Position numbers and translations under genes: made by a program. Under the pieces are notes generated by a model. The model was given only the letters and a program-made list of their open reading frames with translations, made no database searches and had not been told where the DNA came from. 64,000 bases of DNA from Psychrobacillus psychrodurans (lineage in GTDB: Bacteria > Bacillota > Bacilli > Bacillales_A > Planococcaceae), in the NCBI GenBank assembly GCA_900114885.1, contig FOUN01000010.1, forward strand, positions 62,001 to 126,000, given 5' to 3'. Shown in pieces: positions 43,673 through 59,135 of the stretch; positions within the stretch are counted from its first letter, which is position 1; each line of letters begins with the position of its first letter.

Positions 43673-43722
43673 TGATTTTCGTTTCAGGTTGTTATAAAGG
43701 AACGAAGGCTAAGAGCGTCACC
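43673..43722. repeat. Interspersed repeat, copy 3 (right half)
   Basis: TGATTTTCGTTTCAGGT and, further on, GAAGGCTAAGAGCGTCAC match CTGATTTACGTTTCAGGT and AAAGGCTAAGTGCGCCAC of the copy at 59015-59058. The block GTGAAYACTGGG is missing here. Confidence 0.5.
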
Positions 43723-43813
43723 TCAAATAGGGCAACATAAGTACGCCGCAACCTGCGGCAACGATTGCATGACCCACATCCTATGGACCTCCGTTTTGTA
43801 AAAGTGAACAAGG

Positions 43814-46892: not shown

Positions 46893-48068
46893 ATGAACTT
46901 TTTTAAGGAAGCTAAAGCGCTCGTCAAAGCCAACATTCGAGATTATGGAATGTATATTGCGTTAATAGTGATAATGTTAACGTTTACGATTATGACGAAC
47001 GGATTATTTATGTCTTCACGAAACATTAGTAATTTATTGGATTCAGCAGGCTATATCGCTGTATTGGCAGTAGGGATGACGCTAGTGATTGTCATACGTC
47101 ACATAGATTTGTCAGTTGGATTTTTAGCAGGATTTCTTGGTGCCATTGCTGCGATATTTTTAACACAAATGGGAGTATCAGTATGGATTACTATCCCAGT
47201 TATTTTAATCTTTGGAGCACTAATCGGATTGGTTAATGGTGTATTAGTTGCGAAAATTGGAATACCATCCTTTGTAGCAACACTTGCAGGAATGCTGATT
47301 TTCCGTGGGGCTTTGCTTCAGGTTACGGAAAAGACAGGAACTATTATTATTAAAGACGATCAGTTTAATGCGATTGGGAACGGATTTATCCCATCTATTA
47401 TGCAAATAAATGGCTTGCATCTTTTAACATTATTAGTAGGTTTAATAGGGATTCTTTTATTTGTTTACAATGAAATTTCAAATAGACGTAACAAAATGAC
47501 CTATGGTTTCGAGGTTATGTCTAGTGGATTATTCAGTGCAAAGCTTGTATTAATATCCGCAATTATTGGATATATTACATGGATTTTAGCAGGGTATAAC
47601 GGTTTGTCTTGGACAGTAATCATTATGATTGTAGTAGTAGTTATCTATCATTTCTTATCGTCGAAAACTGTACTTGGTCGCCATATTTATGCAGTCGGGA
47701 GTAATCCAGAAGCTGCTCATTTAAGCGGTATCAATGTACAAAAGATTACATATATCGTATTTGGGTCGATGGGAATGCTCGCTGCATTATCTGGGATTCT
47801 ATTTACTTCTAGGCTTCAATCAGCAACGACTACAGCAGGAACACTATTCGAGCTAGATGCTATCGCTGCAGCATATGTTGGAGGGGTATCTTCTGCTGGA
47901 GGTGTCGGTAAAGTAACAGGTGCAATTATTGGTGCCATTGTTATGGCTTCCTTATCAAGCGGGATGAACTTACTTGGTGTTGGTATTTCTTATCAATACA
48001 TGATTCGCGGAGGGGTATTAGCTGGTGCAGTTATCTTTGATGTGATGACACGTAAGCAACGGGCTTAA
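46893..48068 (+). CDS. Sugar ABC transporter permease (XylH/GguB-like)
   Basis: 391 residues from the ATG at 46893 after AAAGGGGGAT. About ten helices; family motifs VLAVGMTLVIVIRHIDLSVGFLAGFLGAIAA (in parts, about 68-98), GLVNGVLVAKIGIPSFVATLAGMLIFRG, and AVGSNPEAAHLSGINVQ, all typical of the AraH/RbsC/XylH family. The central insertion near residues 190-250 with extra helices fits the larger XylH/GguB subgroup. Forms a homodimer with the double ATPase. Confidence 0.88.
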   Translation: MNFFKEAKALVKANIRDYGMYIALIVIMLTFTIMTNGLFMSSRNISNLLDSAGYIAVLAVGMTLVIVIRHIDLSVGFLAGFLGAIAAIFLTQMGVSVWITIPVILIFGALIGLVNGVLVAKIGIPSFVATLAGMLIFRGALLQVTEKTGTIIIKDDQFNAIGNGFIPSIMQINGLHLLTLLVGLIGILLFVYNEISNRRNKMTYGFEVMSSGLFSAKLVLISAIIGYITWILAGYNGLSWTVIIMIVVVVIYHFLSSKTVLGRHIYAVGSNPEAAHLSGINVQKITYIVFGSMGMLAALSGILFTSRLQSATTTAGTLFELDAIAAAYVGGVSSAGGVGKVTGAIIGAIVMASLSSGMNLLGVGISYQYMIRGGVLAGAVIFDVMTRKQRA

Positions 48069-48088: not shown

Positions 48089-48118
48089 GGCACCCTTTCT
48101 TTTTGGGGTGCCTTGTAT
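48089..48118 (+). terminator. Terminator of the sugar transporter operon
   Basis: GGCACCC, nine-base loop, GGGTGCC (with one extra G), then TTGTATTATAT; the T-run is weak. Confidence 0.55.
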
Positions 48119-48139: not shown

Positions 48140-48265
48140 TTTACTTGCTTTTATTAGTAATTTACTTGTGCTCTGTAATCGTTTACTCACGGATAGCTAA
48201 ACAATACTTGCTTACAATCTATATTTACTTGCTCCCATGTGTTAAATACTTGCGGAACGGATAAT
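48140..48265. repeat. Six-unit array of TTTACTTGC at exact 21-bp period
   Basis: The heads start at 48140, 48161, 48182, 48203, 48224 and 48245: TTTACTTG, TTTACTTG, TTTACTCA, AATACTTG, TTTACTTG, AATACTTG. The steps are all exactly 21 bases, two helical turns, while the 12-13 bases between heads are not conserved. Both strands are closed by stops in all frames, so it is not coding. It lies between the transporter terminator and the promoter of the three-component sensor operon at 48304. Confidence 0.85.
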
Positions 48266-48303
48266 TTTGTAAAAAAAGGCGTGGAAAGCATCTAGAAATA
48301 CGA

Positions 48304-48332
48304 TTGGTCAATTTCATTCCTGATGTTAATAT
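48304..48332 (+). promoter_or_regulatory. Possible promoter of the sugar sensor operon
   Basis: TTGGTC, 17 bases, TAATAT, 34 bases before the ATG at 48366 and 52 bases after the last unit of the 21-bp array. Confidence 0.45.
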
Positions 48333-48365
48333 GGAAGAAACAAGCCTACGGAAAGGGGAAGGTAA

Positions 48366-49346
48366 ATGCGGAAAAAAATTGTTCTTCTATTAGGAACTCT
48401 AATCATTGTTTTTAGCTACTTAACTATTGTATCTGCAACAAAGGCTTTTCGATCCACAAGTGAATTACCTGCCACCCTTTCCGAGATGGAAGATACTATT
48501 CGTCTTGTATTAATCACCCAAGAACTGGATACTCCTTTTTGGAATAAAGTCGGACAAGGAGCAAAGCAGCAAGCGAAGGAAGAAAATGTTGAGCTTGAAG
48601 TATGGGGAAGTTACGGAAATGATCAAGAAGAATTTTTAAAAAAGATGGAGATTGCCATTCATTCCAAAGTCGATGGAATCATCGTGCAGGGCTTAGATAC
48701 AGAGGAATTTAAAGAACTGTCAAAAATTAAAGCAGCCTTTTATGGAATTCCTGTCATAACGGTTGCAAATGATGTTCCAGTAGAAGAAAGCTTGCGTAAA
48801 ACATACGTCGGCTCCGATCAGTTCTGGGCAGGAAAAATGATTGCCCATCAGCTTATTAAAGAAATGGGCACATCTGGGGAAGTGATAATTCTTGGGGATG
48901 AAGTGCAAGCATATTATCAACAAGAACGTTTAGCAGGGATACAAGATGTTCTCGAGGGATACCCAGATATTAACATAATTATAAGAGGGACAAAGGACAC
49001 TAATGAACAAGTGATTTCGACAACCCAACAGCTTATGAATGAGGTACCTAGAGCCACAGCATTTATCGCGGTCAATGCAAAATATGTGGGTCCTATGATT
49101 CAAGAAATAGGAAGGCGAACACAGGTGGAGCCATATCATATTTATACGTTTGATGATGGAGTTGAATCGACGGCCCTTCTAGAACAAGGAAAGCTAGATG
49201 GTATTTTAGAGCAAAAACCAGTGGAAATGGGCAAGGAAAGTGTGAAGTGGCTCATGGAATGGATTACAGGAAAGACGGTTCCTCTTAATTCTGATGGGTA
49301 TTTAACAGAAACAAATATGCTTGTGTCGGATGGTGACATGCCTTGA
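48366..49346 (+). CDS. Membrane-anchored sugar-sensing binding protein (XylFII-like)
   Basis: 326 residues. An uncleaved-looking N-terminal helix (about 4-24, KIVLLLGTLIIVFSYLTIV) with no lipobox cysteine, then a Peripl_BP_4 domain: IRLVLITQELDTPFWNKVGQGAKQQA, DGIIVQGLDTEEF, PVITVANDVPVE, VGSDQFWAGKMIA and YTFDDGVESTALLEQGKLDGILEQKP (in parts). It overlaps the next gene, a LytS-like kinase, by 4 bases (TTGA). In Clostridium beijerinckii XylFII presents xylose to the LytS kinase; the gene order here is the same, so a sensor rather than transport role is likely. Confidence 0.8.
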   Translation: MRKKIVLLLGTLIIVFSYLTIVSATKAFRSTSELPATLSEMEDTIRLVLITQELDTPFWNKVGQGAKQQAKEENVELEVWGSYGNDQEEFLKKMEIAIHSKVDGIIVQGLDTEEFKELSKIKAAFYGIPVITVANDVPVEESLRKTYVGSDQFWAGKMIAHQLIKEMGTSGEVIILGDEVQAYYQQERLAGIQDVLEGYPDINIIIRGTKDTNEQVISTTQQLMNEVPRATAFIAVNAKYVGPMIQEIGRRTQVEPYHIYTFDDGVESTALLEQGKLDGILEQKPVEMGKESVKWLMEWITGKTVPLNSDGYLTETNMLVSDGDMP

Positions 49347-58966: not shown

Positions 58967-59058
58967 GTCCCGTGAATACTGGGTTTTCGACACTTTTAAG
59001 AGTGAATAATCCTGCTGATTTACGTTTCAGGTGGAGTACAAAGGCTAAGTGCGCCACG
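58967..59058. repeat. Interspersed bipartite repeat, copy 2
   Basis: GTCCCGTGAATACTGGGTTT (58967), then CTGATTTACGTTTCAGGT (59015) and AAAGGCTAAGTGCGCCAC (59041). The first two blocks match the copy at 18147-18210; the last two match 43673-43722. The first block is inside a perfect AAAAGTGTC...GACACTTTT stem. Confidence 0.6.
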
Positions 59059-59135
59059 TCGTGTGGCAACGCCTTCGTGAGGAAGCGATGAACCATCACC
59101 ACAAATAGTCTAACTTTTATAAAGGGCTCTACCTA

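Follow-up and report, generated by a model that had tools for sequence, protein, structure and literature searches.

The array lies between two genes in the window, the 64,000-nucleotide stretch of DNA analysed here. The upstream permease gene stops at 48068 and the next gene starts at 48366, in agreement with the original prediction of a noncoding array placed after a sugar permease gene. The neighbouring products match the BPD_transp_2, Peripla_BP_4, HAMP/His_kinase and Response_reg/AraC-type families, as expected of the XylFII-LytS-YesN-like set that had been recognised there. Six heads start at 48140, 48161, 48182, 48203, 48224 and 48245, and every step is exactly 21 bp. Their mismatches against TTTACTTGC are 0, 1, 2, 2, 0 and 2 in order; since only two of the six are exact, the description "six copies" was loosely worded, while the number of heads and their spacing hold. 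The features of the region are as follows.

48089..48112, + strand: terminator-like hairpin 3′ of the upstream permease gene, with the array beyond it
48140..48148, + strand: head 1, TTTACTTGC
48161..48169, + strand: head 2, TTTACTTGT, 1 mismatch
48182..48190, + strand: head 3, TTTACTCAC, 2 mismatches
48203..48211, + strand: head 4, AATACTTGC, 2 mismatches
48224..48232, + strand: head 5, TTTACTTGC
48245..48253, + strand: head 6, AATACTTGC, 2 mismatches
48254..48269, + strand: terminal box GGAACGGATAATTTTG, 3′ of the last head, delimited by eye

A likely promoter had been placed 52 bases past the array. A consensus scan found none; a TTGGTC...TTAATAT-like stretch near 48304–48335, with similar sequence in relatives, was picked out by eye. 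Elsewhere in the window, RF01690 (the Bacillaceae-1 RNA family) has two matches, at 43721–43787 and 59029–59086.

Heads of the window type, hereafter type A, recur throughout the genome from which the window was taken (G000; other G numbers denote relatives). Allowing up to three mismatches, the pattern TTTACTTGCN12TTTACTTGC matched 424 times (182 + 242), against 18 matches (9 + 9) for the reversed pattern. The head-pair pattern is therefore not due to chance. With up to two mismatches, G000 holds 345 head pairs, G004 153, G007 119 and G008 94, followed by G009 (15), G005 (11) and G014 (11), and the remaining congeners hold 0–4, near their controls. With up to one mismatch, 11 of 261 family genomes contain at least 10 head pairs; single matches in many other family genomes are no excess over control, and the reversed control itself reaches at least 10 in two of the 261, G191 and G195. 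Across 127 sources, comprising the window and Psychrobacillus genome loci most of which were fetched for holding arrays, identical 7-mer pairs numbered 1746 at a distance of 21, compared with 42–169 for any other distance between 15 and 40.

Beyond these genomes, we examined 31 loci among at least 80 matches listed in a survey of named genomes. Within this set, arrays of six heads are also present in Planococcus ruber, Metabacillus indicus, Bacillus pinisoli and an uncultured Bacillaceae. The runs exceed six heads in Ureibacillus, Kurthia (7), Bacillus marasmi (7) and a Cytobacillus (9), and fall short of six in Metabacillus idriensis, Fictibacillus terranigra and Indiicoccus. Neobacillus has a run of 12, mostly at 20-bp steps. 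The Paenibacillus and Chloroflexota matches proved to be 7-bp repeats instead. Carriage by phages was also considered and set aside: in all 22 viral contigs with a three-head pattern, one frame or more runs across the repeat without a stop, so these matches look coding.

A 21-bp self-similarity scan of the fetched loci uncovered arrays devoid of A heads. Psychrobacillus relatives maintain the same period with other heads, namely TATACGAGAG (type B), AATCGGTCGGTT (type C) and more. Pairs of B heads (CTCTCGNATA) number 204 in G004, 94 in G007, 38 in G017, 35 in G008, 19 in G005 and 9 in G014, and pairs of C heads (ATCGGNYGG) 91 in G018, 66 in G012, 26 in G003, 20 in G015 and 6 in G010; reversed controls for both gave zero in all 19 genomes. 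B matches occur in 13 of the 261 family genomes; five of these 13 belong to other genera and have 1–4 each. For many congeners, the counts of all three head types, A, B and C, equal or approach those of the controls. In ten 20-kb samples from seven congeners, one of them chosen over a known C array of G010, 7 scan windows scored at a shift of 21 compared with 0–2 at each other shift from 16 to 30, some of the shift-21 windows looking coding or of low complexity. Further 21-bp heads were found in sampled stretches of G010, G011 and G016.

The period is strict and the sequence between heads is not. In G000, 335 of 373 steps measure 21 bp and the others 19, 20 or 22 bp. Over 435 A units, spacer columns carry 0.0–0.2 bits, with 0.7 at the first and third base after the head. 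A chain finder, applied to fetched loci with tandem copies kept separate, returned exactly six heads for 52/74 A arrays in G000, 30/45 in G004, 11/26 in G008 and 8/11 in Fictibacillus, and for C arrays 6/11 in G018, 5/10 in G012 and 2/5 in G003, G015 and G010 combined; the C arrays printed from G018 have 5–7 heads. Only 2 of 15 B arrays have six heads and several have 8–20. Six is thus the commonest number for A and not for B. By eye, many arrays among 20 printed G000 loci are six-headed, usually with a GG..AAT..CC-like end after the last head, and a sequence of this kind, resembling the terminal box of the window array, closes many A arrays of that genome.

Two observations concern the surroundings of A arrays. 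One subfamily is embedded in a longer dispersed repeat, non-coding and several hundred bp in length, with flanks in common (L011–L013, L175, L176, L179, L180, L183, L185, L223 and L236). Separately, an orthologous six-head element of G000 and G004 (L189 vs L211) appears, by eye, to be inverted in place between flanks that are 94–98% identical.

A tandem-repeat satellite, grown by slippage and owing its 21-bp step to one ancestral unit with no bound protein, could in principle generate such regularity. Clear duplication of single or multiple units is seen in some arrays (Kurthia, Ureibacillus and B-type), and two arrays of G012 lack whole units (42 bp) that their orthologues in G018 have. This origin nevertheless leaves unexplained why heads are common while spacers are unrelated, why A arrays favour six heads and why they are dispersed to many gene ends, and we consider it unlikely.

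A arrays lie mostly behind genes. We placed 91 A clusters of G000, G004 and G008 that had a called gene on both sides, taking long ORFs as genes, dropping ORFs made mostly of array and counting orthologous arrays separately: 32 lie between convergent, 56 between tandem and 3 between divergent genes, so that 88 lie behind one gene or more, next to its 3′ end. As a rough comparison, 23 of 109 gaps of at least 150 bp are divergent in the loci of one fetched set. Two further A clusters fall within a long ORF. Divergent placement was found in 0 of 23 cases for the B and C sets. The A arrays are also polar: in 72 of the 91 clusters the stop of an antiparallel gene lies at the array's 3′ end (p 2e-8 vs one half). 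For the clusters between tandem genes, this neighbour runs antiparallel to the array in 40 and parallel to it in 16. C arrays between tandem genes display no such bias (3 vs 4). Terminator-like hairpins accompany 41 and 32 of 113 elements at the two ends, compared with 69 of 600 random stretches, and both ends are enriched alike. Of the 78 loci whose skew is clear, 53 have their heads on the C-rich strand; this bias cannot be separated from gene polarity, and we did not retain replication polarity as an explanation. Among 1337 ORFs near arrays, no family recurs at over 3 loci in any single genome; judged by eye, the three families that reach this number are an ABC-transporter-like protein, an SH3-like protein and an ORF that is probably spurious.

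Location behind genes would also suit a structured RNA or 3′-UTR element. Folding argues against it, since 61 elements compared with shuffles gave mean z values of 0.08 and 0.71 on the two strands, and the window array has no Rfam match; we regard an RNA element as very improbable.

The original prediction had tied the array to the XylFII-LytS-YesN sugar operon, where it might act as a local operator. Its position between the permease gene and the operon, and the AraC-type HTH domain of the regulator, are in keeping with that reading, but the genome-wide family adjoins many different genes. Moreover, the sensor gene has a clear orthologue in 8 genomes (72–100% identity), and inspection by eye of the orthologous place found six heads in G000 and G007, four in G004, two in G008, degenerate remains in G014 and G005, and no heads in G010 or in G001, whose upstream sequence differs. 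Across these 8 genomes the array is not conserved together with the operon: of the seven relatives that keep the sensor gene, one retains six heads and in six the array has decayed or been lost. Genes kept in relatives that lack the array was the very observation that had been named in advance as telling against the link. Orthologous operons lacking an intact array thus refute the operator reading by its own standard, and we give it next to no credence. What the window contains is an ageing member of an array family dispersed over the genome.

One place where heads can be compared between species lies behind gatB (L027:4194–5684; NF004011, E 2e-262), whose stop faces the arrays. This locus was selected for its large A cluster and not at random. 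Counting 21-bp chains of at least three heads, arrays of four head kinds stand behind gatB in 10 of 19 genomes: A in G000, B in G004, G007, G014 and G017, C in G003, G012, G015 and G018, and an A-like head, TTAGTTGC, in G009. G005 has scattered B heads, and G008 (L275) has, by eye, a different non-coding insert with only two B-like heads. At a second place, 5′ of one small conserved gene, 4 of 19 genomes bear arrays, built of C heads in G012 and G018, of TTTGTCGCGTTC in G011 and of AATTGGTTGC in G013. The left-hand gene is the same in G011 and G013 and another in G012, so only G011 and G013 are strictly comparable there.

Aligned by eye, the consensus heads TTTACTTGCTCTC, ATTAGTTGCTTTC, AATTGGTTGCTTTC, AATCGGTCGGTTTC and TTTGTCGCGTTC resemble one another and keep the same polarity at each place; the B head does not align clearly with other consensus heads. 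On a tree of the gat region, midpoint-rooted and with one deep node at 0.47 support, B is split over two separate clades and C over two or more, so head type does not simply follow descent. One possibility, which we advance tentatively, is a drifting code: dozens of phased arrays per genome would stand at some gene ends, and their motif would have shifted genome-wide in each lineage together with a putative binding protein. The motif series would then be the five aligned heads just listed. Fast-evolving centromere satellites and their binding proteins would offer comparable dynamics.

Over 32 orthologous A comparisons, kept from 54 alignments after removal of tandem, paralogous, duplicate and over-long ones, change per compared site was 12.8% in heads, 23.7% in spacers and 22.7% in near flanks. 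We then corrected for detection bias by removing the target's best head pair and counting sites only where the query equals the consensus. In the resulting 22 orthologous pairs, from which the window locus and its orthologue in G007 were left out as well, along with the inverted element, 44 of 443 head sites changed (9.9%), against 10.6% expected at half the spacer rate (p 0.37). After this correction no net constraint is evident in A heads. By contrast, in one C array, picked for being perfect in G012, the G012 and G018 copies differ at 1 of 76 sites within heads and at 15 of 41 within spacers.

We propose that the arrays are docking platforms for a putative sequence-specific DNA-binding protein, with an architectural or insulating role and a motif that drifts between species, and assign this reading a probability of roughly 0.5. 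Each head would be a recognition site. As 21 bp corresponds to two helical turns, all heads would present on one face of the DNA, where cooperative binding could build a nucleoprotein block on that side alone. Such one-face binding is suggested by the constant phase of two turns, the direct orientation of the heads and the lack of conservation between them. Location behind genes and avoidance of divergent promoters likewise point to insulation or architecture and not to activation; the likeliest job would be to limit read-through transcription or the spread of supercoils between neighbouring transcription units. Many arrays within a genome share its motif. That one gene is followed by heads which differ between species yet are related suggests that a binding protein and its sites may have changed together. 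The original prediction had foreseen either a cooperative regulator site or a chromosome-organising sequence: cooperative one-face binding is what we infer, an organising role is possible, and the operon tie has gone.

The strongest objection to docking platforms comes from the A heads, in which no net constraint is seen. That result would agree with a factor that has weakened or disappeared in certain lineages, or with arrays that began as mobile elements or satellites. Other points also count against platforms: in all but one of the seven relatives the window array has decayed or gone, B arrays show no six-head preference, C arrays have no polarity between tandem genes, hairpins are alike at both ends, and many congeners have control-level A, B and C counts. 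The ORFs near arrays, with no family exceeding three loci in any one genome, yielded no binding protein. If the arrays are platforms, the chromosomes of Psychrobacillus and relatives would have a level of organisation, or of insulation between transcription units, that has not been described before and is recognised by helical phase and not by sequence. A motif that differs between close species at constant phase would be a natural experiment on how a protein and its sites change together, and head type, as a readable trait of each genome, could be matched with protein content and so make the protein findable.

A non-autonomous mobile element, REP- or MITE-like, whose heads bind a transposase or recombinase and which spreads to safe sites behind genes and then decays, accounts for the patchy presence of A heads (the 11 of 261 family genomes above, most others having none or control-level counts) and for their neutral-looking decay. 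The subfamily with shared flanks at several G000 loci and the apparent inversion between G000 and G004 speak the same way. Outside that subfamily, however, arrays have heads in common and not spacers, as the spacer columns of the 435 A units show, no recurrent partner gene lies nearby, the loci compared yielded no clean filled/empty pair or target duplication, and one gene end bears different heads in different species. We therefore hold this origin to be possible but rather doubtful. A C array of G012, considered as a recent insertion, has an orthologue in G018.

Among known systems, REP/BIME elements with their RAYT transposases come closest to the proposed platforms. As described in one account (PMC2817692), REPs are high-copy, extragenic, species-specific repeats for which protein binding and a chromosome-organising or termination role have been proposed. 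The arrays are likewise high-copy, extragenic and species-specific, the 424 head pairs of G000 exceeding 100 copies per genome; REPs are palindromic and alternate in orientation in BIMEs, unlike the direct repeats at a fixed 21-bp step seen here (PMC2817692). The folding values of the 61 elements give no sign of a hairpin-forming palindromic unit, and heads run one way within the printed arrays, so the likeness fails on palindromes and orientation. The insulating role we propose resembles that proposed for BIMEs.

In iteron origins and parC-type plasmid centromeres, too, short direct repeats recur at intervals of roughly two helical turns and are bound cooperatively. Each is, however, a single site adjoining the rep or par genes that belong to it, whereas here there are dozens of arrays per genome, and no protein family accompanies over 3 loci in any genome. 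DNA uptake sequences are short, numerous words with species dialects, and the arrays too are short, numerous words that vary between species; uptake sequences are not known to form 21-bp phased arrays. CRISPR repeats are about 23 bp or more and separate unrelated spacers of even length. A heads, with about 7–9 conserved bases, are too short, as the original prediction had noted. That the array was not recognised there as a described element agrees with our search of an open-access library, which turned up no account of such arrays.

As a minor observation, the reversed control CGTTCATTTN12CGTTCATTT, with up to one mismatch, itself has 4–14 matches in G191, G195, G196, G197, G225, G238 and G242, all of genus g3, and these are perhaps a further 21-bp head family.
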